From Phormidium tenue FACHB-1050 (GTDB lineage Bacteria; Cyanobacteriota; Cyanobacteriia; Pseudanabaenales; Pseudanabaenaceae), in the NCBI RefSeq assembly GCF_014696925.1, contig NZ_JACJQY010000042.1:1-51105 (forward strand): a DNA stretch of 51,105 nt, in the 5' to 3' direction. Numbering within the stretch: position 1 is the stretch's first letter; each line of letters opens with the position of its first letter. Positions 230 to 40,066 of this stretch are shown one piece after another. Made by a program: the position numbers and the translations under genes. Below the pieces are notes generated by a model. The model was given only the letters and a program-made list of their open reading frames with translations, searched no databases and was not told the origin of the DNA.

Positions 230-326
230 TAGCTAGAACAAATCAAAACCCAAAAGATAGGTGGCGGCGCGAAGCGGCGCTACTCATCTTTTGGGTTTTA
301 TGTCCTAAAACTTACATTGCTATAGC
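230..326. repeat. Dispersed palindromic element, family A (degenerate core)
   Basis: Outer arms 245-258 and 286-299 (AAAACCCAAAAGAT and its complement) are perfect, while the GGCGGCGC core has drifted. Conserved flanks lie outside the palindrome: AGCTAGAACAAATCAAAACCC on the left, shortened elsewhere, and TTTTATGTCCTAA...TTGCTATAGC on the right. The same flanks recur near 6340-6436, 10060-10150 and 10905-11000. The element fills most of the 345-base gap between psbA and guaD. The rest of the gap is AT-rich and should hold the guaD promoter, but no clear boxes were recognised. Confidence 0.85.
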
Positions 327-510
327 TTTATACCAAAACTGGCGACAGCTAACTGACCATTGATTAACCATGTCTATCTGAGATAACTTGATTGTACTTT
401 TTGCGACTACAATCAAGATCAAAAAATGTGAACAATAGTTTCATAAGACTAACCTCATTAAACTAATTATTTTTGATTGATCGCTTTAATCGATCACTAT
501 TTTCTAAACT

Positions 511-1842
511 ATGCAATATCACTCTATCAAAGGATTTCGAGCCAGTTTTCTAGATACGATCGCCGATCCATTCTATGCTCCAGAAGCTGACTGTATTCGC
601 TACTTTCCTGATGGTTTGCTGATAGTTGAAAATGGCAAAGTCAAAGATTTAGGTAACTACCAAGAACTGCAAGCTAAATATGCAGATATTCCGATTACAG
701 AGTATCGCGATCGCCTAATTGTCTCAGGATTCATTGATACGCATATCCATTTCCCACAGACAGAAATGATTGCGTCCTATGGCGAGCAGTTATTAGAATG
801 GCTAAGTACCTATACATTCCCGACAGAGCGAAAGTTCGCTGATCGTAACTATGCCCTAGAGATTGCCTCTATTTTTCTCAATGAGTTATTGCGAAATGGG
901 ACTACAACTGCCTTGGTGTTTACCGCTGTATTCCCACAATCAACGGATGCTTTTTTTGAAGAAGCACAGCGACGTAATTTGCGGATGATTGCTGGCAAAG
1001 TAATGATGGATCGTAATGCTCCAGAGTTTTTAAGAGATACAGCATTATCTTCGTATCTAGAAACTAAGCAGTTAATTGAGAAATGGCATAAGTGCGATCG
1101 CTTACTCTATGCTGTTACCCCAAGATTTGCGCTGACATCAACCACAGAACAATTAACTAATATCGGTAAACTCTTGCAGGAATTTCCTGATGTTTACCTA
1201 CATACGCATCTTTCAGAGAATGTAAAAGAAGTGGAAGCGGTTGTTGCTGAGTTCCCTGAAAGCGATGGATATCTAGATGTCTATGATCGTGCAGGTTTAG
1301 TGACTGAAAGATCTGTATTTGCTCATGGAGTCCAACTTACCGATCGCGAATTTACCAGATTATCAGAAGCAAAATCGGCGATCGCCTTTTGTCCAACTTC
1401 CAATCTATTTTTGGGGAGCGGACTATTCAAACTAGGGAAAGCTAAATCTTTAGAAACTCCTATAAAAGTCGGTTTAGGAACCGATGTGGGTGCAGGAACC
1501 AGTTTTTCGATTTTAAAAACTGCTAGTGCCGCCTATCAAGTTGCCCAGTTGAGATCTCAAAAGTTGTCAGCGTTTCAAGCATTATTTCTGGCGACTTTGG
1601 GGGGAGCAAGAGCGTTATGTCTTGAGGATAAATTAGGTAATTTTGAGATTGGGAAAGAAGCTGATTTTGTGGTGCTAAATCTGCGCTCAACACCAATTAT
1701 GGCGTTAAGAAATCAATCTTCAGAAGCGATCGCCCCAACACTTGCCGAAATCTCCGATCAACTATTTGCGACGATCATTATGGGTGACGATCGGGCGATC
1801 GCCGCGACTTACATCATGGGCGAATTAGCTCACGAAGCATAA
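511..1842 (+). CDS. guaD: Guanine deaminase
   Basis: This 443-residue amidohydrolase should convert guanine to xanthine plus ammonia in purine salvage. The zinc motif HIHFPQ is at residues 78-83, with FPTERKF near 103, a HTHLSEN segment near 230 that supplies a further metal or catalytic His, and GLGTDVGAGTSFS near 320 with the catalytic Asp. These are hallmark positions of the guanine deaminase branch rather than cytosine deaminase or chlorohydrolase. Length matches the family. The gene is monocistronic and convergent with asnS. Its stop codon TAA (1840-1842) lies inside a palindrome shared with the intergenic space. No purine transporter is adjacent. Confidence 0.95.
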   Translation: MQYHSIKGFRASFLDTIADPFYAPEADCIRYFPDGLLIVENGKVKDLGNYQELQAKYADIPITEYRDRLIVSGFIDTHIHFPQTEMIASYGEQLLEWLSTYTFPTERKFADRNYALEIASIFLNELLRNGTTTALVFTAVFPQSTDAFFEEAQRRNLRMIAGKVMMDRNAPEFLRDTALSSYLETKQLIEKWHKCDRLLYAVTPRFALTSTTEQLTNIGKLLQEFPDVYLHTHLSENVKEVEAVVAEFPESDGYLDVYDRAGLVTERSVFAHGVQLTDREFTRLSEAKSAIAFCPTSNLFLGSGLFKLGKAKSLETPIKVGLGTDVGAGTSFSILKTASAAYQVAQLRSQKLSAFQALFLATLGGARALCLEDKLGNFEIGKEADFVVLNLRSTPIMALRNQSSEAIAPTLAEISDQLFATIIMGDDRAIAATYIMGELAHEA

Positions 1843-1864
1843 AGGGTGCAACGCGCCCTTTATG
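1838..1864. terminator. Palindrome between guaD and asnS
   Basis: Arms CATAAAGGGTGC and GCGCCCTTTATG around an AAC loop, with one G-T mismatch. It lies between two convergent stop codons and includes the guaD stop. It could terminate both genes. Confidence 0.8.
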
Positions 1865-1868
1865 TTGC

Positions 1869-3269
1869 CTAAAACTCTGCACTTTGAGGAAATCGAGGAA
1901 AGGGAATTACATCTCGAATATTTCCCATCCCTGTAATGAACTGCACTAGGCGCTCAAAGCCAAGCCCAAAACCAGCATGAGGCACAGTGCCATAGCGACG
2001 TAAATCTAAATACCACCAATAATCTTCAGGATTTAGACCAACACTGCGTATTCTGGCTTCCAATACATCAAGGCGTTCTTCTCGCTGAGAACCGCCAATA
2101 ATTTCTCCAACTCCAGGGGCAAGAATATCCATAGCTCTTACTGTCTGGCGATCAGTTGCTGTATCTTCATTCACCCGCATATAAAATGCTTTGATGCCCA
2201 GTGGATAGTCCATGACAATCACGGGCTTTTGAAAATGTTCTTCTGCTAAAAAGCGCTCATGTTCCGATTGCAAATCTAATCCCCACGACACTGGAAACTC
2301 AAAGGTTTTACTGCTCTTTTCGAGAATGGCGATCGCCTCTGTATAGGTAATTCGCTCAAATTTTTCATCAATGATTTTGCGAGCATTGGTCATTACTTGA
2401 TCGTTTACCCGTTCTTGGAAAAACTCCATATCTTCTGGGCAAGTTTCCAAAACATAATTGAAAATATATTTGAGAAAATCTTCGGCTAGATCAGCATCAC
2501 CTTCGAGATCGCAAAAGGCGACTTCTGGCTCAATCATCCAAAACTCGGCAAGGTGGCGCGAAGTATTTGAGTTCTCAGCGCGAAAAGTAGGGCCAAAAGT
2601 ATAGACGTTAGAAAAGGCGGTTGCCATGATTTCGGCTTCTAGTTGACCACTGACTGTCAAAAAAGCTGGCTTCCCAAAAAAATCTTGGGAAAAATCAACG
2701 GGCTTACCCGCTGCCGCTACTTTATTTAGGTCAAATGTGGTGACCCCAAACATCTCGCCCGCACCTTCACAATCGCTAGCAGTGACAATTGGTGTATGTA
2801 CCCATAAAAACCCCCGTTCTTGAAAAAATTTGTGAATTGCAAAGGCACAAGCATTTCTCACGCGAAATACAGCCCCAAACATATTTGTACGGGGACGCAA
2901 ATGCGCGATCGTGCGAAGAAATTCGATCGAGTGACGTTTTTTCTGCAAAGGATAAGTCTCAGGATCGGCGACACCAAAAACAGCGATCGCTGTAGCTTGC
3001 ATTTCCACCCTTTGTCCTTTGCCCATGGACTCAACTAAAGTCCCAGTCACCTCAATCGACGTGCCTGTAGTGATTTGCTTAATTAGAGTTGCATAGTCAT
3101 CAATCGTTTGCGGCAAAACTATTTGAATTCCCTGTAGCGATGAACCATCATTTAGTTCTAAGAAAGTAATTTCCTTCCCTTCACGCTTTGTCCGTACCCA
3201 ACCACGGACAATATAGGATTGACTAGTTAAACCACTACGTAATAAATCAATGATTCTTGCAGATGACAT
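1869..3269 (-). CDS. asnS: Asparaginyl-tRNA synthetase
   Basis: Class IIb aminoacyl-tRNA synthetase of 466 residues that charges tRNA-Asn. The N-terminal OB-fold anticodon-binding domain (about 15-110, with [23 protein letters not shown]) is followed by the class II catalytic core. Motif 2 ([20 protein letters not shown]) has the [11 protein letters not shown] form typical of AsnRS rather than AspRS, and motif 3 is [16 protein letters not shown] near the C-terminus, which ends in [10 protein letters not shown]. Length is normal. The ATG at 3269 leaves a complete OB fold. It is transcribed towards guaD and shares no operon partner. Confidence 0.97.
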
Positions 3270-3567
3270 ACGCTAGAAATAATTGCTAGAAATAACTGTA
3301 AATAGTTTGTAGAGCAATGAAACCAGCGATCGCATAGCTCAGGCAAGTATCCTAACATTTTGGCGGATGGTACTGTCAGAAATCTGAGATGTTCCCATTT
3401 AGAACTCCCCCCCTAAATACCCCTATATATAGTTAAGCTCTCACAAATCAAAATGTAGTACTTGAAAAGTGAATGTGCTTAAACCAAACTCAAAAAACAG
3501 AATAAAAAGTAGTATCTTAAAAAACCTTATAATTAAACGAAACCCTAATGAGTCGTCTTCAGTCGAA
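3270..3567. other. Intergenic region upstream of asnS
   Basis: About 300 bases, AT-rich, with a C-rich patch near 3405-3423 and no ORF with coding character. It must hold the asnS promoter on the minus strand. No hairpin of the families common in this window is present. Confidence 0.5.
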
Positions 3568-3777
3568 CTAATTTTGATATGCCATTTCTCGGATTAAGGG
3601 CAGGCGATTGCTGATGTAGTTACTGAGATCGTTTTGTTGATGGGAGTCGAGGGATGAGCGTTGTTGAACCTGATCAACCAACCAGCTCATTAGCCCATCA
3701 TCATCAAGATTTAGGAGTAGATTTGGCTGTGCTTGGCTGACTGAGTCCCAGAAGAGGCGTATGATAGCAGGTGTCAT
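3568..3777 (-). CDS. Small conserved-looking protein, function unknown
   Basis: A 69-residue ORF with an ATG start at 3777, standing alone between asnS and pgl, with ordinary codon use. The product is soluble and slightly acidic, with an LLLNLDDDGLMSWLVDQ segment that looks amphipathic-helical and a C-terminal ISNRLPLIREMA helix. No domain was recognised. It is divergent from pgl, and the 216 bases between them carry repeated TATTGATxAAxATTGATCAA units (about 3887-3930), which might be a regulatory site for either gene. It is likely real because it fills its own transcription slot and no larger gene overlaps it. Confidence 0.6.
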   Translation of the reverse strand: MTPAIIRLFWDSVSQAQPNLLLNLDDDGLMSWLVDQVQQRSSLDSHQQNDLSNYISNRLPLIREMAYQN

Positions 3778-3886
3778 GACTATTTACCTTAACCTTAATA
3801 TTGTTCTAACATTTTATAGGTTAATACATTTGCTCGTTAGTACTGTCAAAAATCACACAAAATGAAATAAAAGACACCTCTCTTAA

Positions 3887-3932
3887 GATTGATTGATAAA
3901 TATTGATGAATATTGATCAAAATTGATCAAAA
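3887..3932. repeat. ATTGAT-type short tandem repeats upstream of pgl
   Basis: Four imperfect copies of ATTGATnAA at roughly 10-13-base spacing (ATTGATTGATAAAT, ATTGATGAAT, ATTGATCAAA, ATTGATCAAAA), about one helical turn apart. They lie in the divergent space between the 3568 gene and pgl. A transcription-factor site is possible but is an inference. Confidence 0.5.
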
Positions 3933-3993
3933 AATATACAAAATGCATCATTAGTTCATTCTCACCATTTTTTTCGCTACAGAGGTATTTTTT

Positions 3994-4704
3994 ATGGCTA
4001 GACAAGTAGAAATTTGGAACGATCGCGCTGAAATTGCCTCAAGAGCATTGTTATTGTGTCAACTTGCCTATGATGAAGCAATTTCTAAAGACGCACGCTT
4101 CACCATTGTTGCCGCAGGTGGGAGTACACCCCGTGTTTTGTATGAACTCTTAGCAAATAAAGAATGGGACTGGTCAAAGGTACATGTTTTTTGGGGAGAT
4201 GAGCGCTATGTACCTGTTAGCGATCCGCAAAGTAATGAGGGGATGACTCGCCAAGCATGGCTTAATCATGTCGCTATTCCTGAGTCAAATATTCATGCAG
4301 TGCCAACTGATGCTGATGATCCTGCGATCGCCGCCGCAAAGTATGAACAGCATATTCAAGAATTTTTTGGTGTCAGTGGAGGAGAATTTCCCCAATTCGA
4401 TCTGATTTTGTTGGGAATGGGGGACGATGGACATACAGCCTCGCTATTTCCACATACCAAAGCTCTCAAAGTTGGCGATCGCCTTGTAACCGTTGGCGAA
4501 AAAGATGGACAACCTCGGATCACTATGACTGTTCCTTTAATTAATCAGGCGAAAGAGATTATTTTCATGATCGAAGGTGCTGCTAAGGCAAAAGCTTTAA
4601 CTGCGGTGTTAGCGCCTCAAGGTGATGTTAATCAATATCCATCACGACTGATTACTGGTAACACTATTTGGCTATGCGATCGCACAGCTATGAAGTCCAA
4701 ATAA
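3994..4704 (+). CDS. pgl: 6-phosphogluconolactonase
   Basis: Oxidative pentose phosphate pathway enzyme hydrolysing 6-phosphoglucono-1,5-lactone in the cytosol. In cyanobacteria this pathway supplies NADPH in the dark. The 236-residue protein has the NagB/DevB-type fold with GGSTPRVLYELL near residue 41, FWGDERYVPVSDPQSN near 68 and LLGMGDDGHTASLFP near 143, where the Asp and His are catalytic in the family. The start has an AGAGG ribosome-binding site about 10 bases upstream. It is not linked to zwf or opcA here. The length is normal. Confidence 0.96.
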   Translation: MARQVEIWNDRAEIASRALLLCQLAYDEAISKDARFTIVAAGGSTPRVLYELLANKEWDWSKVHVFWGDERYVPVSDPQSNEGMTRQAWLNHVAIPESNIHAVPTDADDPAIAAAKYEQHIQEFFGVSGGEFPQFDLILLGMGDDGHTASLFPHTKALKVGDRLVTVGEKDGQPRITMTVPLINQAKEIIFMIEGAAKAKALTAVLAPQGDVNQYPSRLITGNTIWLCDRTAMKSK

Positions 4705-4733
4705 TCAAGCTCATTCAGGCTTCAAGTAATATG

Positions 4734-4758
4734 AAGGTGGATGCATAGCGCCCACCTT
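4734..4758. repeat. Imperfect hairpin between pgl and DUF3493 gene
   Basis: AAGGTGG...GC / GCGCCCACCTT with a bulge, ending directly at the ATG of the next gene (4760). It may terminate pgl or occlude the next gene's ribosome-binding region. Confidence 0.6.
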
Positions 4759-4759
4759 T

Positions 4760-5023
4760 ATGACAGTCAATAAAATCGTGTCCAAACTAAATTCTGAACA
4801 GTATGATCGCCTAAGACGTGAAGCCAAAGCGCCCTACCGTGGACTCCGCATATTTATTTATATAGCTTTTTCAGGTTCGGGATTTATTGGTGCAGTGATC
4901 TTTTTCACAAGATTAATTGCTAGAAATGGAGATTTGGAGACTAACTTAGGAAATTTAGCTATACAAATTGGGGTATTAGCTTTGATGCTATGGCTATATC
5001 GTATTGATAAGAACAAGAATTGA
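4760..5023 (+). CDS. DUF3493 membrane protein (LPA1/Rep27-related domain)
   Basis: An 87-residue protein with two predicted membrane helices (about 29-50 and 63-82) preceded by a basic N-terminal segment with LRREAKAPYRGLRIFIYIAF. This RxEAxAPYRGLR signature is the DUF3493 domain, known in plants from the LPA1/Rep27 protein needed for photosystem II assembly and repair. A thylakoid assembly role is therefore plausible but only inferred. The ATG sits right at the 3' edge of a hairpin with little room for a ribosome-binding site, so translation may be coupled to pgl or use an unusual initiation. Confidence 0.75.
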   Translation: MTVNKIVSKLNSEQYDRLRREAKAPYRGLRIFIYIAFSGSGFIGAVIFFTRLIARNGDLETNLGNLAIQIGVLALMLWLYRIDKNKN

Positions 5024-5188
5024 TATGAATTTGATCTTTTTTGTAAGTATTATGTCAATTGCTATAATGTCTAAATCATTTTAATTTTGATTTCTTTGCA
5101 ATTCCAAAAAAATTTGCAATTAGTTTAAACTAATAGTTTTCCATTTTAGAAACACTTCAATTTCATATTGGGTTTGGGACGGCTTGAT

Positions 5189-6235
5189 ATGCAAAGTTGC
5201 AAAAATGCAATAGAGGAGATGGTAATTGCAGAAATTGATTTACAAATCTCTCACTTACCTCAATACCGACGTGATCAGATTAACTTAAGTGAAGTCGCAG
5301 CTTATGCGCTCAATCGTCTGCCCCCGATGTATGCCACATCGAAAGTAGGATGGCTGAGGCAACGCAAAAAAGCAGCTACCGAAATGCGATCGCAAATTGA
5401 ATCCGCAGTGCGACGGGCGCTCGTAAGTGTCAAGCCTGACGCACTGAGAGACGCAAGACCTCTACCATCGCAGGAGGTGGCTAGTCATGCGCGATCGCTT
5501 GCGGCACTCCAACAAGTTTTAGGCGCAGAAAATGCCTCTTGGAAGGATATTCCTACCGCTTTAGAGAATGCCTTGATTACAGTCAAGCTCAAAAGTGCAG
5601 TGAGTAATACCTACATAGTTACAGGTAAACGCGAGGCAATTGCTGGCCGCGATGAAACTGCTTTGGGTCGAAAATCTTCAGAAATATCTTGGAAAGGTAG
5701 ACAGGTTCAAACCTCAATCAATTCTGATCGGGATGAGCAGAAGGCTAAAGATTTTCAAACCTATATGGTTGATGTCAATTATCAATTTAGTAATGTACTA
5801 GAAAAATTAGTATTGTCACTTGCCTATCATCAAATTCAGAAATTACATCCTGCGATCGCTGAAACCGTCGATCTAGGAGAAGCTACAGCCTATGTATTAA
5901 ATAGACTACCTCCAATGTATGCAACCTCAGAAAAAGGCTATAAATCCTTGAGACTAAGGGCGCGAGAAGTCTATGGCAAAGAAGTTGTGGCAGTTCTCAA
6001 AGAGGCGATCGCTGTTTGTGTAGAATCTCCAAATTTAGAAAAAATCCCTCTACCTTTGGCTCGTTTTGAGGCAGAACTAGAAGAATCTCTGGAGCAAGTG
6101 AGTTGGATTTTGCAACGTGATGATATTAATTGGCGCAATGCTCCATTTATTGTTGAGGAATGTCTATATAAAGTTGTTAACAATGAAATGGAATGGCGTA
6201 AACGCAGCGATTATAACTATCCATATTCTACATAG
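5189..6235 (+). CDS. Tandem ComFB-domain protein
   Basis: About 348 residues carrying two copies of the late-competence ComFB domain. Both share the core NLSEVAAYALNRLPPMYATS or VDLGEATAYVLNRLPPMYATS, at roughly residues 35-60 and 225-250 of this start. Each is followed by a basic helix and then a similar downstream helical segment (NASWKDIPTALENAL / DINWRNAPFIVEECL), so the whole two-part module is duplicated. In cyanobacteria single-domain ComFB proteins bind cyclic dinucleotides and influence pilus or competence functions. The same here is an inference. An upstream TTG (5168) is in frame, but the ATG at 5189 has the G-rich GGGACGG before it and is preferred. Confidence 0.85.
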   Translation: MQSCKNAIEEMVIAEIDLQISHLPQYRRDQINLSEVAAYALNRLPPMYATSKVGWLRQRKKAATEMRSQIESAVRRALVSVKPDALRDARPLPSQEVASHARSLAALQQVLGAENASWKDIPTALENALITVKLKSAVSNTYIVTGKREAIAGRDETALGRKSSEISWKGRQVQTSINSDRDEQKAKDFQTYMVDVNYQFSNVLEKLVLSLAYHQIQKLHPAIAETVDLGEATAYVLNRLPPMYATSEKGYKSLRLRAREVYGKEVVAVLKEAIAVCVESPNLEKIPLPLARFEAELEESLEQVSWILQRDDINWRNAPFIVEECLYKVVNNEMEWRKRSDYNYPYST

Positions 6236-6287
6236 GGCGATGCCCCACTCTCGTGAAGTAATTCTCATTATAAAATCATTTTTTAGC

Positions 6288-6330
6288 AAGTTTTTTGAAA
6301 GCTCGCCAACGGCGAGCTTTCAAAAAACTT
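6288..6330. terminator. Hairpin after the ComFB gene
   Basis: Perfect 20-base arms (AAGTTTTTTGAAAGCTCGCC and complement) around AAC. The core TTTTTTGAAAGC is shared with a hairpin at 22966-23018. Confidence 0.85.
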
Positions 6331-6436
6331 ACTTTGCTTAGGACATAAAACCCAAGAATCGAGTGGCGGCGCTTTGCGCCGCCACTCGATTCTTGGGTTT
6401 TGGTTTGTACTAGCTAACTCTTTTTTTGCTATACCA
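6322..6436. repeat. Dispersed palindromic element, family A, inverted copy
   Basis: A perfect palindrome at 6347-6401 (26-base arms, TTT loop, GGCGGCGC core), flanked on one side by CTTTGCTTAGGACATAAAACCC and on the other by GGGTTTTGGTTTGTACTAGCTAAC. These flanks are the reverse complement of those seen at 10905-11000. The arm segment GAATCGAGT is unique to this copy. It lies in the gap between convergent genes. Confidence 0.9.
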
Positions 6437-6489
6437 AAATCGTTCTTGTAATTAGAATTGCTAACTCTCGTAACGGGACATCACCACAA

Positions 6490-7344
6490 TTATCTTGATG
6501 GGCTATATTTCATGATTTGTAGTATTGATTGTTTGGAATTAATTAGGCTTGAATTGTTGACGTTATATTTGCCCATACATTTCTTCTTAGGATACCTTTT
6601 CATTAATTGATCCAACATTGCTAATCGCTCTTGTAAAGCATCTTTATCATTAGGATTTATATCAATCCATTTAGTGTATGCATCGAAAGCATCATACCAA
6701 TAAAGATTTTCTGCAAAGATTCTCGCCTTTTCTAAATGTGTAGAAGCAGCTTGTACTTTCTTGATGACTGAAGGATTACTTTCTCGCTTGACAATTGCTC
6801 TAATGTCTATTTGATTAGTAACGTCACTCTGATCATGAGCGCTAGGTTGCATATAACGAATATGCCAACTATAGATTTTATTTACTTCCAGTGAAGGTGC
6901 ATTTGCTGGAAGCTCAAATCGATATAGACCAGACTTGACTTTAGGAGTTACTTCTGACCGAGAACGAAAAATTGACTTTGCATTACGAGCAAAGCCAACT
7001 CTAATGAAAAAATCCATATAAAAATTATTGCTATTATAACTTACTGGCTTTGAATTTTTTGATGCTAGTGATTTATGCTCGACATACCAATAAAAAGTTG
7101 GTCGCTCTGAAAGTGTTCTTGCTCCATCGTCTGGAGCGATGAGATCGATAGAGACGAGATTAGTTAAATCTCCACACCTTACCTGTCCTTCAGGAAATTG
7201 ATTTGGTAATGTGCCCAGACCATAAGAACTATTACTTTTTGATTGTCCTGTAACTTGCCCACACCAACTAATCGTGCTGAGAAATATTGTCACAAAGACT
7301 AATTTAGGACATTGGAATAGAGGTTGCCAAATGTAAAGTTTCAT
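6490..7344 (-). CDS. DUF928 family exported protein
   Basis: A 284-residue protein with an N-terminal hydrophobic segment (about 14-30) ending near GQVTGQS that looks like a signal peptide, so it is probably periplasmic or envelope-located. The DUF928 core begins at LIAPDDGARTLSERPTFYWY near residue 70 and continues through FELPANAPSLEVNKIYSWHI. The C-terminus has a helical region with LYWYDAFDAYTKWIDINPND that resembles a single TPR-like hairpin. DUF928 is cyanobacterium-enriched and has no known reaction. There is no HIP1 site in the gene, and it stands alone. Confidence 0.8.
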   Translation of the reverse strand: MKLYIWQPLFQCPKLVFVTIFLSTISWCGQVTGQSKSNSSYGLGTLPNQFPEGQVRCGDLTNLVSIDLIAPDDGARTLSERPTFYWYVEHKSLASKNSKPVSYNSNNFYMDFFIRVGFARNAKSIFRSRSEVTPKVKSGLYRFELPANAPSLEVNKIYSWHIRYMQPSAHDQSDVTNQIDIRAIVKRESNPSVIKKVQAASTHLEKARIFAENLYWYDAFDAYTKWIDINPNDKDALQERLAMLDQLMKRYPKKKCMGKYNVNNSSLINSKQSILQIMKYSPSR

Positions 7345-7613
7345 CTTTGCTTATTCCCTAATAGTAAATATAGTCTTTTATAAGCAAGCGAGGTACAAAG
7401 GTTTGTTTCACAAACCCGTACTTCACTAGACTGATAAACGCTATATTCTTTATTTACTAACTACTATTGGCAAATTATACCAATTTAAAACTTTTGCCTA
7501 AGTAAGTAGACATAATTAAATATAAACCTCTAAAACCTGTACAGCTTGATAGGTGAGCTATAGATGTTTTAAATTTGTTGCTTAATTACGCCAAATCACT
7601 TAGATATAGTTGC

Positions 7614-7664
7614 AAACCAGAAGAGGAATGGTGGCGCTTCGCGCCGCCATTCCTCTTCTGGTTT
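7614..7664. repeat. Palindrome with GGCGC core
   Basis: 24-base arms starting AAACCAGAAGAGG around a TTC triloop, with one G-T mismatch. Confidence 0.9.
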
Positions 7665-7688
7665 TTGATTTTTCCTAACTAATACCCA

Positions 7689-7779
7689 TTTATGAAAGTG
7701 TGACAATACTTTTATAAATTAAAAAACAAAACCCAATAATTAGTGGTGCGGCGCTTCGCACCGCACCACTAATTATTGG
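7689..7779. repeat. Two-hairpin repeat (family B relative plus palindrome)
   Basis: The first hairpin has the GAAAGTGTGACAA-ACTTT form seen at 12479 and 12581. The second (7733-7779) has perfect 19-base arms CCAATAATTAGTGGTGCGG around CGCTTCGCA. The pair lies immediately downstream of the binding-protein gene and may terminate it. Confidence 0.8.
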
Positions 7780-7798
7780 AGTAAGGAAGTATATGGGT

Positions 7799-8884
7799 TT
7801 ATATTGTTCCCGATCGCAGCTTAGTCCAAAGCTCCTTATATTGTGTAAGTGTTGATGGAGACAAAGGAGCGATTAACTCACTTTTAGCGAGGATATCCTG
7901 TGAGAAAAACTTGATCGGATCAGCTTTGACACTAGCAGGAACTTGATCTAACTCACTAGATGCGCTAATTGCCTCAGTCAGAGATGTAATTTGAGCGGCA
8001 ATCTCAGGCGTTAGACAAAAATTCATCCATTCCGCCGCCGCGATCGCGGCTTCGCCCTTAGGTATTACCCAAAGATCACTCCAGAGAGATGTGCCATCTT
8101 GGGGGATTACTACTCTCAGATTAGGGTTTTGTCTTTGGGCTTTATGCATATCACTCGTCCACCCCACTGCGGCGAATGTATCGTCTGCTAGTAGAGACTG
8201 CAAATAATTATCAGAAGAATAGGTTAAGACCTGCGAGTTAAGGCTTTTTAGTTCTTGTGTCAGTGTGGCAAAAACATCTTGACGTTCAACTAAGTTTTCT
8301 AGTTGATAGGATTGCCCCATCTTTTTTAAAACTAAGCCGATCACTTCACGGGCATCGTCGGGTAGGGATAGCTTTAGTTTTAATTCTGGCCGCCATAGGT
8401 CTGACCATTGAGTAATCTTAAATTTCAGTTTGTCACTACGGTAGGCGATCGCTGTTGCTCCCCAGCGATAGGGAATGCCCCACACTTGATTATTGCGCGT
8501 AACACTCTGTCGCCAAAGGGGAGATAGTTTTTGCCATTTCGGAATTTTTTCTAGTAGATTGGGAGTGATAGGTTGGATTAAAGAATTAGCGATCGCTCGA
8601 TCTAGCCAACTGTCGCCAATACTGATGAGATGTGGTGCTTTTTCTTTAGCGATATTGGGATAATTTTGTAGTTCTTGCCAAAGTTTTGAAGGGGCATTTT
8701 CAGCTTTAAATTCAATTTTTGTTTTAGAGGCGGACTCAAATTGATTAATAACTTTACTGGGTATGGCTCCTAGTAAACCCGTGATCCTTAAGTGATCGCG
8801 CTGATCAAAAGGATTTGATACTTGACATCCCCCAAGTGCAGCGATCGCCGCCCCACCTACAACTAAAAACTTACGTCTATCCAT
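7799..8884 (-). CDS. Extracellular solute-binding lipoprotein (polyamine-type ABC transport)
   Basis: A 361-residue periplasmic binding protein. The N-terminus MDRRKFLVVGGAAIAALGGC combines a twin-arginine-like RR with a lipobox (LGGC, Cys20), so it is likely exported and lipid-anchored. The mature part has the two-lobed class 2 fold pattern of spermidine/putrescine (PotD) proteins: GIPYRWGATAIAYRSDKL near 137, LSLPDDAREVIGLVLKKMGQ near 172 and LWVIPKGEAAIAAAEWMNFCL near 270. In cyanobacteria such orphan PotD-like proteins are common. No permease or ATPase gene is adjacent, so the substrate is uncertain. Confidence 0.85.
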   Translation of the reverse strand: MDRRKFLVVGGAAIAALGGCQVSNPFDQRDHLRITGLLGAIPSKVINQFESASKTKIEFKAENAPSKLWQELQNYPNIAKEKAPHLISIGDSWLDRAIANSLIQPITPNLLEKIPKWQKLSPLWRQSVTRNNQVWGIPYRWGATAIAYRSDKLKFKITQWSDLWRPELKLKLSLPDDAREVIGLVLKKMGQSYQLENLVERQDVFATLTQELKSLNSQVLTYSSDNYLQSLLADDTFAAVGWTSDMHKAQRQNPNLRVVIPQDGTSLWSDLWVIPKGEAAIAAAEWMNFCLTPEIAAQITSLTEAISASSELDQVPASVKADPIKFFSQDILAKSELIAPLSPSTLTQYKELWTKLRSGTI

Positions 8885-8917
8885 GACCTAATTTTATACC
8901 CATATCCCATTAATACC

Positions 8918-8950
8918 AAAACACAAAATGGCTATGCCATTTTGTGTTTT
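8918..8950. repeat. Family B hairpin (CACAAAATGGC)
   Basis: Arms AAAACACAAAATGGC and complement around TAT, with TAATACC on one side and AAAACCCTTGCTGGGTTTGG on the other. The same arms occur at 12534-12567 and 12638-12672. Confidence 0.9.
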
Positions 8951-8989
8951 AAAACCCTTGCTGGGTTTGGTTTTTAATTTACAAAAATA

Positions 8990-9059
8990 AAGCGGCGCTT
9001 TGCGCCGCTTTGACCCACAAGCAATTAAAAAAGGAGCAAAGCTCCTTTTTTAATTGCTT
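8990..9059. terminator. Two adjacent hairpins between convergent-side gene ends
   Basis: 8990-9010 has AAGCGGCGC-TTT-GCGCCGCTT. 9019-9059 has arms AAGCAATTAAAAAAGGAGC around AAA, ending six bases before the stop of the coiled-coil gene. The second, with its T-run, is a good terminator for that minus-strand gene. Confidence 0.85.
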
Positions 9060-9064
9060 AGTTT

Positions 9065-9832
9065 TTACTTTACAAATGGACGCATCAGCAAATAACCAGC
9101 GCCAAACGAAGTTAGCACGATCGCTATGATCGTTGCAGTTAAGACCCAACCACTTAAGCCTGTAGACTCATTTGCCTCCTCCATCGACTCAGTACGAAGA
9201 GGTCGAGAAGATATTTCTTCACGAATTTCTAACTTGGGCAATACTTTTGTTTTTGGGGTCGATGTAGGAGCGGGCGCTTCAAAGGCTGCAAAAGAACTAT
9301 CGTAATACAGAGCTTCACTAGCCATCGAATCGCTATCCATGGGTTGTACTGGCTCAGTAGCAAGTTGTCTCGCCCTAGAAATTGCTTCCTGAATAGCGTT
9401 GGTTGTCTGCTGTACAGCAACTTTACGAGGACTAACCTGTGTGGGCTTTTCCACAGAGCGGGGCTTAGCGGCAGGAGGACGACCTTGAGGTTGAGGATTA
9501 CTTCTTGATGGTGCAGTATTAATTTGTGAAGAAGCACGGATACCTGCTAAAACATCAGTTAGCTTAGAATCAGGTAAATTAGACTGGGTGAGAATTGCTT
9601 GAACTCGATCTGTAGATTGGGCGATCGCTTCAAACTCTTGCAACAGCATTTGATTTTGCTTAGTTAGTTGCTCATTTTGCAACTGAAAAAATGAGAGCTT
9701 TGCTTGAGTAGATTGCAACTCCGCAGCCAATTCTCGATACACAGTCACAGGTACTGAGGCTTGATAACCAGAGTGAGAGGTCTGATAACCAGAGTGAGAA
9801 GTTGTAGGTTTAAAGACTGGATTGGCTTGCAT
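9065..9832 (-). CDS. Tail-anchored coiled-coil membrane protein, unknown function
   Basis: 255 residues from the ATG at 9832; an in-frame GTG at 9844 adds four residues. Order of parts: a short N-terminus with a duplicated TSHSGYQ heptad (encoded by a direct repeat near 9765-9799), a coiled coil (YRELAAELQSTQAKLSFFQLQNEQLTK, given here in part), a long Pro/Ser/Thr-rich linker, and a single C-terminal membrane helix (GWVLTATIIAIVLTSFGAGYLL) with a short basic end. This is the layout of a tail-anchored protein with its bulk in the cytoplasm. The architecture looks cyanobacterial, but no named domain was recognised. Confidence 0.75.
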   Translation of the reverse strand: MQANPVFKPTTSHSGYQTSHSGYQASVPVTVYRELAAELQSTQAKLSFFQLQNEQLTKQNQMLLQEFEAIAQSTDRVQAILTQSNLPDSKLTDVLAGIRASSQINTAPSRSNPQPQGRPPAAKPRSVEKPTQVSPRKVAVQQTTNAIQEAISRARQLATEPVQPMDSDSMASEALYYDSSFAAFEAPAPTSTPKTKVLPKLEIREEISSRPLRTESMEEANESTGLSGWVLTATIIAIVLTSFGAGYLLMRPFVK

Positions 9833-9895
9833 AGGCGACAGCACCGATAGACCGTAAAAATTTAGTCGAGACTATACCATATGATTTACTACTTT

Positions 9896-10053
9896 TTTGC
9901 ACTAAAATCCAAAATACATAGCGCTCCTAAATGAGTTGTAAGATTTTGAGTGTTGTGAGAGTGCGCCCTGAAGGGGCGCACTCTCACAATCTATTTAGGA
10001 TTGCTATAGTTGACAAGCTAAGCTCGCCAACTATGTTTTGGATTTTAGTGCAA
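9896..10053. repeat. Nested inverted repeat around a GTGAGAGTGCGCCC hairpin
   Basis: The outer arms TTGCACTAAAATCCAAAA (9896-9914) and TTTTGGATTTTAGTGCAA (10036-10053) enclose a hairpin at 9953-9989 (TTGTGAGAGTGCGCCC). The inner hairpin has the same arms as the one at 30424-30466. Confidence 0.8.
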
Positions 10054-10054
10054 A

Positions 10055-10150
10055 GCGAGAGTTAGCTAGTACAAACCTAAAACCCAGAAGATAAGTGGCG
10101 GCGCTTCGCGCCGCCACTTATCTTCTAAGCAAAACTTGATTTGCTATAGC
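10055..10150. repeat. Dispersed palindromic element, family A (right flank shortened)
   Basis: Left flank GAGTTAGCTAGTACAAACC, then a perfect 19-base-arm palindrome AGAAGATAAGTGGCGGCGC-TTC (10086-10126), then AAGCAAAACTTGATTTGCTATAGC. The left side has AACCC before the palindrome, but the matching GGGTTTTATGTCC is absent on the right. Confidence 0.9.
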
Positions 10151-10192
10151 CGCCCAATTTGTTTAGTTTGCTAATTTTAAAGCTTTAAAGCC

Positions 10193-10906
10193 ATGCTTTT
10201 ATTACAATTCAGTACTTCTCACTATTGCCGTAAAGCTAGGCTGGCTCTTGGCTATAAGCAAATTCCCTATCAGGTTGAAAATCTCACCCCTGCTTTGCAC
10301 ATTTTACGAGTTAAACCTCTTTCGGGTTCACATACTGTGCCTGTACTATTGCCTCAGCAAAAAAACTGTCCCGCAGTAGTCGCCGACTCTACCGAAATTA
10401 TTCGGTTTCTGGAAGCCTATCAACCTGATCCACCTCTGTATTTGGAAAATGATATGCAACAAAAGGAAGCTTTACGATTGGAAGATTATTTTGATGAATT
10501 TATTGGTACGGCGGCGCGGTTTGTGTACTACCAGTTTCGTGCTAATGAGGGCAAACAGATCGATTCTTCTTGGATGAGTCAAGCTGTGATTGCGATTGTC
10601 CGATCGCAATATGACATTAATGCCGACTCAGCAAAGATTGCTGCTCTGAAAATTGCTGATGCGATCGCGATGCTCAGTGAATTTTGGCAAGATGGCTATT
10701 TGGTGGGCGATCGCTTTAGTGTTGCTGATTTGACTGCGGCAGCTTTGTTGTCGCCATTAGGTTTAATTCCTACTTATCGGCAAAATTATCCTTGGCTATT
10801 TGAGCGAATCACCGAAATTCATCAGCTTTGTAATGAACCATTACCCAAAAATTGGCAAGCTGGACTTGATGGTTTATCAAGTTATAGCAATGCAAAAGTG
10901 AACTAG
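10193..10906 (+). CDS. Glutathione S-transferase family protein
   Basis: A 237-residue protein with an N-terminal thioredoxin-like domain (MLLLQFSTSHYCRKARLALG, with the CRK pair in the active-site position) and PVL...VVADSTEIIRFLE for the gamma-glutamyl-binding SxxI segment (S near 65). A helical C-terminal domain contains DRFSVADLTAAALLSPLG, the GST N-capping-box region. It probably conjugates or reduces substrates with glutathione in the cytosol. The exact class and substrate are unknown. The gene is monocistronic and flanked by palindromic elements on both sides. Confidence 0.88.
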   Translation: MLLLQFSTSHYCRKARLALGYKQIPYQVENLTPALHILRVKPLSGSHTVPVLLPQQKNCPAVVADSTEIIRFLEAYQPDPPLYLENDMQQKEALRLEDYFDEFIGTAARFVYYQFRANEGKQIDSSWMSQAVIAIVRSQYDINADSAKIAALKIADAIAMLSEFWQDGYLVGDRFSVADLTAAALLSPLGLIPTYRQNYPWLFERITEIHQLCNEPLPKNWQAGLDGLSSYSNAKVN

Positions 10907-11000
10907 TACAAACCAAAACCCCAGAAGAAGAATGGCGGTGCGAAGCACCGCCATTCTTCTTCTGGGGTTTTATGTCCTAAGCAAAACTTGCTTTTCTATA
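10905..11000. repeat. Dispersed palindromic element, family A (best copy)
   Basis: AACTAGTACAAACC, then a perfect palindrome with 27-base arms (10915-10941 and 10945-10971, GAA loop, arm segment AGAAGAAGAATGG), then ATGTCCTAAGCAAAACTTGC. The left flank starts at the stop codon TAG of the GST gene (AAC TAG), so the element abuts, or supplies, that stop. Confidence 0.92.
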
Positions 11001-11006
11001 AGGTAG

Positions 11007-11057
11007 TGAACAAGATGACAAGGGTGGCGCAAAGCGCCGCCCTTGTCATCTTGTTCA
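11007..11057. repeat. Palindrome with GGCGC core
   Basis: 24-base arms TGAACAAGATGACAAGGG... around AAA with one mismatch. With the preceding element it fills much of the 336-base gap before the next gene. The remaining 11058-11242 is AT-rich promoter space. Confidence 0.9.
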
Positions 11058-11242: not shown

Positions 11243-11899
11243 ATGACTGTCAATGTTAGCGAATCTTTGTTTGAGCAGATTCTCGAATATCTTCGAGCAA
11301 GGACTGAAGCGAGCGATCGCGTTGCTGAAAGTTTGCTCAAAACACTTGAAACTCTGACATCTAGCAGTACTACAAGTTCTGTTACTAAGTCCAATAGCGA
11401 TCGCGACGCTGATCTAGAATTGCAGTTTGGACAAAAACTATTTGACGCTTGGAAAGAGCTAGCTGACCTACAAGTGGGCGAAAACTATTGGAGCTATCCA
11501 GTCATGTTTGAAGACCTTGCCGAAGCAATGGAGATATCTGTTGATCGCTTTGTGCAGTATTTATCAAATGTTCAGATTGGCAGTTTGCAGCTTATTCAAG
11601 GTCGTGGCTACAATTATCAGGTAAATGGACAGCAATCTGCTTCCTTGACTTTCCATTCTGCCCCAACTCTCAAAAAAGCAGCGATTCCCAATGTTGCTGA
11701 TAAAAAACAAGGTGCGGATCATAAATCTCTAAGCAAAACTTTTAAAGTAGGCGATCTCGTAGTTGTAAATGCGAACCGTCAACAGTATGCCAACCATAAA
11801 GGTGTAGTTGAGCAAGTGATTAGTGTTAGCTGTCGTGTCAAATTAGACAATGGCTGGACAGCCTTTTTACCTAATCATTGTTTGGATCACATTCCATAA
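11243..11899 (+). CDS. Unknown protein with C-terminal KOW/SH3-like domain
   Basis: 218 residues from the ATG at 11243; a TTG at 11213 is in frame but less likely. The N-terminal half is helical and acidic (ESLFEQILEYLRARTEASDR...). The middle has LFDAWKELADLQVGENYWSYPVMFEDLAEAMEI (quoted here only as LFDAWKELADLQ to EMEI positions about 70-105), which suggests a winged-helix-like unit. The last 60 residues (FKVGDLVVVNANRQQYANHK, GWTAFLPNHCLDHIP) look like a small KOW/SH3 beta barrel of the type that binds RNA or protein. Function is unknown. The stop codon is inside a 24-base palindrome arm. Confidence 0.7.
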   Translation: MTVNVSESLFEQILEYLRARTEASDRVAESLLKTLETLTSSSTTSSVTKSNSDRDADLELQFGQKLFDAWKELADLQVGENYWSYPVMFEDLAEAMEISVDRFVQYLSNVQIGSLQLIQGRGYNYQVNGQQSASLTFHSAPTLKKAAIPNVADKKQGADHKSLSKTFKVGDLVVVNANRQQYANHKGVVEQVISVSCRVKLDNGWTAFLPNHCLDHIP

Positions 11900-11942
11900 A
11901 TTGCAAAAGGGGTGCTTAGCGCCCCTTTTGCAATTTATGGAA
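11892..11942. terminator. Palindrome covering the last codons of the 11243 gene
   Basis: Arms TTCCATAAATTGCAAAAGGGGTGC and its complement around TTA, with one G-T mismatch. The left arm contains part of ATT, then CCA and the TAA stop of the upstream gene. Confidence 0.9.
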
Positions 11943-12384: not shown

Positions 12385-12445
12385 ACTCAAGAACCAAATT
12401 CTTGTGACGTGGCTTTGCCACGTCACAAGAATTTGGTTCTTGAGT
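12385..12445. terminator. Long perfect palindrome after DUF309
   Basis: Perfect 29-base arms (ACTCAAGAACCAAATTCTTG...GACGTGGC) around a TTT triloop, 15 bases after the stop. Confidence 0.9.
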
Positions 12446-24245: not shown

Positions 24246-24326
24246 GCGGTCATGGTGGAATGGTAGACACGCCATCTTGAGGTGGTGGTGGCGAAAGCTG
24301 TGAGAGTTCGAGTCTCTCTGACCGCA
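24246..24326 (+). tRNA. trnL-GAG: tRNA-Leu (anticodon GAG)
   Basis: 81 bases. Acceptor GCGGTCA pairs with TGACCGC, and the discriminator is A. The D-arm is followed by anticodon stem CCATC/GGTGG with loop TTGAGGT (GAG, reading CUC/CUU). The variable arm TGGCGAAAGCTGT has the class II size, and the T-arm has GAGAG-TTCGAGT-CTCTC. CCA is not encoded. The 3' acceptor strand and discriminator also form the outer part of a long palindrome that follows directly. Confidence 0.96.
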
Positions 24327-40029: not shown

Positions 40030-40066
40030 AAAGAAAGAGAGAGCGCAAAGCGCTCTCTCTTTCTTT
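40030..40066. terminator. Palindrome between the DRTGG and TIGR02450 genes
   Basis: Perfect 17-base arms AAAGAAAGAGAGAGCGC around AAA between convergent genes. Confidence 0.92.

Follow-up and report, generated by a model that had tools for sequence, protein, structure and literature searches.

The window analysed here, the 51,105 nucleotides of contig C37 of the Phormidium tenue FACHB-1050 genome (G000, 5.6 Mb), holds four copies of a palindromic element with common outer flanks and an apex of GGCGGCGC or GGCGGTGC around a three-base loop, and raises the question of how the stem of such a hairpin can change from copy to copy while its two arms go on matching each other. The copies, first noticed from the letters of the window (the original prediction), are genuine and are members of a miniature-transposon-like family in Pseudanabaena, about 115 bp long and with the ends TATAGCAA..TTGCTATA. 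Comparison with sister species indicates that their stems are most probably rewritten at the DNA level, by template switching at DNA hairpins that homogenises the arms and inverts the loop. The matched-arm behaviour is also wider than the four copies, since other hairpins with unrelated flanks act alike.

When the 551 near-perfect hairpins found in 920 kb of the FACHB-1050 genome were sought in 1.32 Mb of the sister species G022, both flanks allowed 202 to be located, of which 134 gave an alignment of 80% or more and 97 were kept after a flank filter, while the reverse direction gave 180 placed, 134 aligned and 88 kept hairpins of G022. A locus was dropped if it aligned below 80%, offered under 60 flank sites for alignment or exceeded 15% flank divergence, and the union of both sets consists of 131 loci. 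Among the 2,579 stem pairs counted (55 pairs with a gap were set aside), 2,214 were unchanged, 254 had changed on one side and 79 had changed on both sides and were still complementary, where the rates of change in the arms predict 6.6 such double changes (Poisson p ~6e-56), an excess of about 12 times over chance; a further 16 had changed on both sides and were non-pairing in one genome, and 16 were mismatched in both genomes. The hairpins had been chosen for near-perfect stems in one genome, and because of this ascertainment the single-arm changes are lopsided, with 143 in the other genome and 13 in the reference for the FACHB-1050 set. Arm sites had changed in 8.7% of cases (451/5,158) and flank sites in 7.1% (733/10,312), and with arms at least as diverged as flanks there is no sign of purifying selection on the stems. 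Paired changes were found in 52 of the 131 loci, one in 36 of them, two in 10 and three to five in 6. A count made before the flank filter and with less G022 sequence gave 66 paired and 261 single changes at 110 aligned loci, together with 20 exact loop inversions against 31 identical loops, and a second species pair, G019 and G008, showed 13 paired changes over 6 loci and 7 in the reverse direction.

The loops of the same loci revealed the second feature. Out of 92 three-base loops, 25 are the exact reverse complement of their counterpart in G022, 32 are identical and 35 are otherwise changed, while exact reverse complements were seen in only 34 of 9,467 flank triplets used as a control. Longer non-palindromic loops of equal length (17 in total) were identical in 7 cases, exactly inverted in one and otherwise different in 9; the remaining 22 of the 131 loops were palindromic, unequal in length or unreadable. 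Exact flips and paired changes occur together at eight loci. When divided by arm length, inverted and identical loops number 9 and 4 for arms of at most 16 bp, 6 and 14 for arms of 17–20 bp and 10 and 14 for arms above 20 bp. The process is so frequent that the orientation of a loop is close to equal odds. Flips are also present in the G019/G008 pair, where 6 loci gave 2 exact flips, 1 flip with a substitution, 2 identical loops and 1 substitution (in reverse 1 flip, 2 identical and 3 other), and between strain SR411 and G022, where locus L200 has 4 hairpins that align and 2 of them differ by an exact flip.

Within the family itself the picture is more mixed. The claim that each copy has an arm word of its own was not borne out, as the 89 family hits (45 in the FACHB-1050 genome, 35 in G022 and 9 in others, a few of them chance or doubled; 67 with a 55-base core) fall into inherited types with extra differences. 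In FACHB-1050, 32 of the 45 hits have one or both arms at most 4 differences away from AAAACCCAAGAATCGAGTGGCGGCGC, roughly two thirds of the 35 hits in G022, counted by eye, are of the AAAAGATGAG type (AAAACCCAAAAGATGAG.. or AAAACCAAAAAGATGAG.. or near variants), and the four arm words of the window are diverged versions of one word; part of the apparent variety of arms from copy to copy is plain subfamily structure. Inside the FACHB-1050 type (a table of 32 rows in which one copy is entered twice), 832 pairs hold 25 deviations common to both arms, where 0.6 are expected by chance, and 29 deviations in one arm. The claim that the opposite arm always complements its partner goes too far, one-arm changes being frequent both within the type (29 against 25) and between orthologues (254 against 79). 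The original prediction had also named two findings as speaking against a rewriting of arms, a small number of inherited arm types and single-arm mutations at the neutral rate, and each was found in part: the arms do fall into few types, and single-arm changes reach a large fraction of the neutral rate.

In the mechanism proposed, a replication fork would meet the hairpin and the nascent strand would switch template to the opposite arm, on the same or the sister strand, and then return. The newly made arm would become the exact complement of the other arm, a point mutation in one arm would thereby be copied to its partner or erased, and a switch made through the loop would leave the loop inverted. 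We infer that the copying proceeds by replication template switching and not by other hairpin-dependent repair or recombination. Two mechanisms had been put forward originally, and while template switching is supported by the paired excess and the exact loop inversions, the other, RNA-level selection, is not needed. Neutral stems were simulated under point mutation roughly as fast as in the flanks, whole-stem copying between arms and the same detection filter, using one free rate, 19-bp stems and a flip chance of one half. With 0.4–0.7 rewrites per hairpin per lineage the simulation gave 2.5–3.3% paired changes, 8.2–6.7% single changes and a flipped fraction of 0.37–0.41, to be compared with the observed 3.1% paired and 7.5% single (FACHB-1050 set of 97) and 0.44 flipped (25 of the 57 identical or inverted three-base loops in the union); without copying, paired changes fell to 0.04% and flips to zero. 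Under these assumptions a neutral model with one rate can roughly reproduce paired changes, single changes and flips together, and would need no selection.

Several observations weigh against this explanation. Single-arm changes outnumber paired ones, which means that rewriting must be slow enough to leave many mismatches; it is frequent but not instantaneous. The simulation overpredicts mismatches confined to FACHB-1050 (1.65–1.67% against 0.68% observed) and underpredicts pairs mismatched in both genomes (0.22–0.48% against 0.73%). No loss of a palindrome-handling nuclease was seen that would explain the rate: XseA exceeds its cut-off in all 23 genomes of the genus, and each of them also has SbcC-like matches, these below the curated cut-off. 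The paired changes lean to transitions (51:28 transitions to transversions, flanks 392:341, p=0.07), as RNA compensation would also give. The flips, finally, seem unevenly placed. All three exact flips of the window that can be polarised by a further sister species, G005 (those at 7614, 8918 and 8989), fall on the G022 branch, since G005 agrees with FACHB-1050. In comparisons based on 80 kb of G005, with 4–8 loci each, G022 and G005 gave 5 inverted against 1 identical loop (8 loci; reverse 4 against 2, 8 loci) and FACHB-1050 and G005 gave 1 against 2 (4 loci; reverse 1 against 4, 6 loci). The G022 side may thus flip more, and either the rates may differ between branches or G022 may be odd; these comparisons slightly lower our confidence in template switching. 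Flips are nevertheless not confined to G022, since nine FACHB-1050 copies of the AAAACCCAAGAATCGAGTGGCGGCGC type with unaltered arms carry the loops GAA (4), TTC (2), AAA (2) and TCC (1).

Among other explanations, the one that survives best is site-specific or homologous recombination between the arms, with a cruciform resolved by inversion and the arms matched by gene conversion. It too would give loop flips and arm homogenisation, and small inversions in chloroplasts are described in this way in PMC12928735. From sequence alone it is inseparable from template switching, but we consider it very unlikely, the arms differing in sequence from locus to locus. Arms of 12–16 bp are moreover short for homologous recombination.

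RNA-level selection, in which the hairpins would terminate transcripts or stabilise their 3' ends and a second mutation would be favoured for bringing pairing back, by way of G-U intermediates, is slightly less probable still. In its favour stands the location of the hairpins: with genes called crudely as long open reading frames, 516 of the 551 lie between genes, 33 in coding sequence and 2 at edges, and 127 lie between convergent genes although such spacers total 18 kb, a crowding that suggests either terminator use or an insertion preference. The transition lean points the same way, as do GU mismatches slightly above AC mismatches (47:36) when the spacers of co-directional genes are read on the strand inferred to be transcribed, though the latter bias is not significant (p=0.27); taken together the two excesses lean slightly, and not significantly, to RNA tolerance. 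Selection of this kind leaves the exact inversion of 25 of 92 three-base loops unexplained, the arms are no better conserved than the flanks, and spacers of divergent genes show paired changes as often (19/497 pairs) as those of co-directional (37/1,278) or convergent ones (17/611); coding sequence gave 4/167 pairs and edges 2/26.

Ectopic gene conversion would replace a whole hairpin from another copy and bring new arms and loop together. Near-identical copies (97–98%) do exist at other loci of the FACHB-1050 genome, the arms fall into shared types, and 6 of the 131 loci carry three to five paired changes. Most loci with paired changes have one or two, however, as point mutation followed by copying predicts; hairpins without family flanks flip too (8918 and 40030), and where the arms have stayed the same, an exact inversion can do without a donor. 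Conversion was on the number of changes per locus judged insufficient, donors of the derived arm words not having been searched for, and we hold it to be very unlikely. An artefact of assembly, in which the assembler would set a perfect hairpin's loop either way round, is the least credible of all, for even if perfect arms should by reasoning give identical inner k-mers in both orientations, and flips seem heavier on the G022 side, arms of at most 16 bp flip at least as often as longer ones while assembly k-mers in usual use are longer than 16 bp, loops are mixed among FACHB-1050 copies, flips occur also in G019/G008 and against SR411, and paired arm changes cannot arise so. RNA selection and assembly error were both rejected as insufficient on the exact flips, the unconserved arms, the flips of short arms and the paired arm changes.

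A bolder version of template switching may be entertained, though we are inclined to doubt it: hairpin rewriting would be a dominant mutation process in Pseudanabaena, with short-loop perfect hairpins as neutral flip-flops that randomise loop orientation within the divergence of sister species, perhaps fast enough to leave it mixed within one culture, and near-perfect hairpins would be kept without selection.

Table 1. Copies of the element family and further hairpins of the window compared with sister species (copy boundaries approximate)
Feature	Position	Strand	Arms	Loop	Loop in G022	Loop in G005	Remarks
Copy 1	230–324	+	245–270, 274–299	GAA (271–273)			right end ATTGCTATA at 316–324
Copy 2	6328–6433	-	6347–6372, 6376–6401	TTT (6373–6375)			TATAGCAA end at 6426–6433
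Copy 3	10062–10148	+	10086–10104, 10108–10126	TTC (10105–10107)	AAA		arm word of G005 set apart by one change on both sides, A-T to G-C
Copy 4	10883–11000	+	10915–10941, 10945–10971	GAA (10942–10944)			three paired changes and one unpaired against G022; flanks 2 changes in 80 sites
Hairpin, unrelated flanks	7614–7664			TTC	GAA	TTC	against G005 three pairs changed on both sides, one on a single side
Hairpin	8918–8950		15 bp	TAT	ATA	TAT	G022 arms unchanged
Short hairpin AAAGCGGCGC-TTT-GCGCCGCTTT	8989–9011			TTT	AAA	TTT	
Hairpin	11007–11057				unchanged		against G022 one paired change (A-T to T-A) and another confined to a single arm
Hairpin	11892–11942			TTA	TAA	TTC	several paired changes against G005
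Hairpin	12385–12445		29 bp				three paired changes against G005; absent in G022
Hairpin	40030–40066		17 bp	AAA	TTT		arms identical to G022

The element that carries the hairpin was defined from 54 end pairs in the FACHB-1050 genome and the G022 pieces, which gave the consensus ends TATAGCAA.GCAAGAG.. and ..AAACTTaCaTTGCTATA. Terminal inverted repeats are present in the family, with the ends TATAGCAA.. and ..TTGCTATA, and because of these consensus ends the four copies can be seen as the middle of a longer element, their flanks being part of a miniature transposon-like unit with a central hairpin. Only two long end pairs, which might belong to an autonomous partner with the family ends, were found in the pieces of FACHB-1050 and G022. 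Insertions of the family are polymorphic between sister species: 68 of the 202 placed FACHB-1050 hairpins are absent or partial in G022, 58 of these show a length difference of 60–260 bp (neighbouring hairpins in one insertion being counted separately) and in 32 of the 58 the region contains a loose match to the flank motif of the family. We infer that the family spread by transposition. A related element of 115 bases in G022 (contig C1, ~468165, locus L053), with the ends TATAGCTG..CAGCTATA, has a clean empty site, which is compatible with duplication of a TA target on insertion, a trait of IS630-type elements.

The stem of copy 1 is decayed, while upstream of the same gene in G005 stands a similar element whose stem is perfect. 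Copy 2 has perfect arms, its end opposite TATAGCAA is fused to a hairpin at 6288–6330, and the block 6253–6489 containing it is absent from both G022 and G005. This block appears as a composite insertion in the tip of an older hairpin, with ACTCTCGT on either side in the window; the hairpin at the site is near-perfect in G022, with loop TCC, and imperfect in G005, where the loop reads GGA, itself a flip. Copy 3 is perfect over 19 bp and lacks in the window the right outer arm (GGGTTTTATGTCC) that is present in G022 and G005. At about 9916–10005 lies a hairpin insertion of 90 bases, absent from G022 and G005, inside an arm of a larger hairpin starting CTAAAATCCAAAA. The arms of copy 4 are perfect. 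Around 5008–5024, G022 and G005 have a common imperfect hairpin (AAGAATTAGTGGTGCGGC..) and the window has none, which shows that hairpins are lost or gained in both directions.

The window contains 39 near-perfect hairpins and each of five first-order Markov shuffles none, hence they are not due to chance, and only three of the 39 are family copies according to the flank search. Extrapolated from the 551 hairpins in 0.92 of 5.6 Mb, the FACHB-1050 genome would hold about three thousand. In pieces of 8–80 kb, larger only for FACHB-1050 and G022 and not randomly chosen, 9 genomes of the genus had 0.20–0.61 hairpins per kb and 9 cyanobacteria outside it 0–0.05 per kb. Using window positions 6100–7400 as query, 22 of 22 relatives in the genus matched, many at the repeat part among the matches listed, and the 15 genomes searched from elsewhere in the class gave no match. 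An exact 19-base flank word was found in 26 stretches of named genomes, 23 of them Pseudanabaena (SR411 13, FACHB-1998 5, the bin ULC187bin1 2, and one each in P. mucicola FACHB-723, P. biceps O153 and the bin M085S1SP2A07QC); the others are two stretches of one uncultured cyanobacterial bin and one labelled Flavobacterium. The latter, a metagenome bin (L206), has no hairpins in 8 kb, and mis-binning or chance may account for it. On the strength of these matches the genus is taken to be Pseudanabaena. A search of the window against Rfam at the gathering score gave no structured-RNA family except a tRNA at 24246–24326. Escherichia coli was intended as a yardstick for the flip rate, but in 50 kb each K-12 holds 1 hairpin of such quality and SE15 3, with no three-base loops, and it was dropped since these are too few for a useful comparison.

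A functional RNA structure is conventionally proved by paired changes in its stem, and since stems in this genus abound in such changes without clear selection at the RNA level, covariation alone would mislead annotation here. The genus offers several hundred natural reporters per megabase for template switching in vivo, in which the loop records flips and the stem records copying, and it suggests a neutral route by which miniature transposons may keep perfect palindromes. The mechanism is known in principle, from yeast and from rRNA genes, where flips are rare; its high rate and breadth across the hairpins of a bacterial genus look new. In a search by title and start of abstract, which covered the 10–20 entries listed out of up to 700 and outside which most subscription journals lie, no description of hairpin rewriting was found for Pseudanabaena, cyanobacteria or prokaryotes.

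One known parallel is quasipalindrome correction, in which, as here, an imperfect palindrome is made perfect with one arm as template. It is known mainly from mutation hotspots in single genes, unlike the many hairpins of one genome described here, and bacterial work on it is reportedly that of Lovett. For quasipalindrome correction PMC8604942 names Ripley 1982. As elements, the family resembles cyanobacterial miniature inverted-repeat elements such as Nezha (PMC3733652) in being small, non-coding and present in many copies with terminal inverted repeats and empty sites, a likeness by description and not by sequence, and differs from them in its central hairpin with a rewritten stem. Like REP elements and REPINs (PMC3116915, PMC3733652) its hairpins are many small palindromic intergenic repeats; the GTAG/CGTC end tag of these was not seen in the family consensus ends, and a transposase was not searched for. 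In chloroplasts, loops between short inverted repeats likewise invert between related species (PMC12928735), a comparison based on the loops and not on arm-pair statistics. A survey of proteobacteria (Lavi 2018, as cited in PMC8604942) reportedly found inverted-repeat regions more conserved than their surroundings, whereas the hairpin arms of Pseudanabaena are not more conserved than their flanks.

In yeast, template switching at short inverted repeats homogenises arms and inverts spacers, with 10 spacer inversions in yeast genes, in nine of which the spacer alone had changed (Abraham & Hazkani-Covo 2021, PMC8604942). Arm homogenisation and spacer inversion between perfect short inverted repeats, TTC/GAA flips included, are common to both cases, but the yeast inversions are ten, in coding sequence and across strains, while here two bacterial species differ by inversion in 25 of 92 three-base loops, mainly in intergenic regions. 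The same process has been suggested for mitochondrial palindromes of hairworms (PMC6649704). For template switching that creates and maintains RNA hairpins, Monttinen & Loytynoja 2022 (PMC8794818) predict that a single event yields compensatory changes at several bases together with an inverted loop. In the rRNA genes they describe, compensatory change together with loop inversion is extremely rare (6 cases, with loop inversion only in 69), a rarity tied by the authors to conservation of the loops, whereas the loops of Pseudanabaena seem free to flip.

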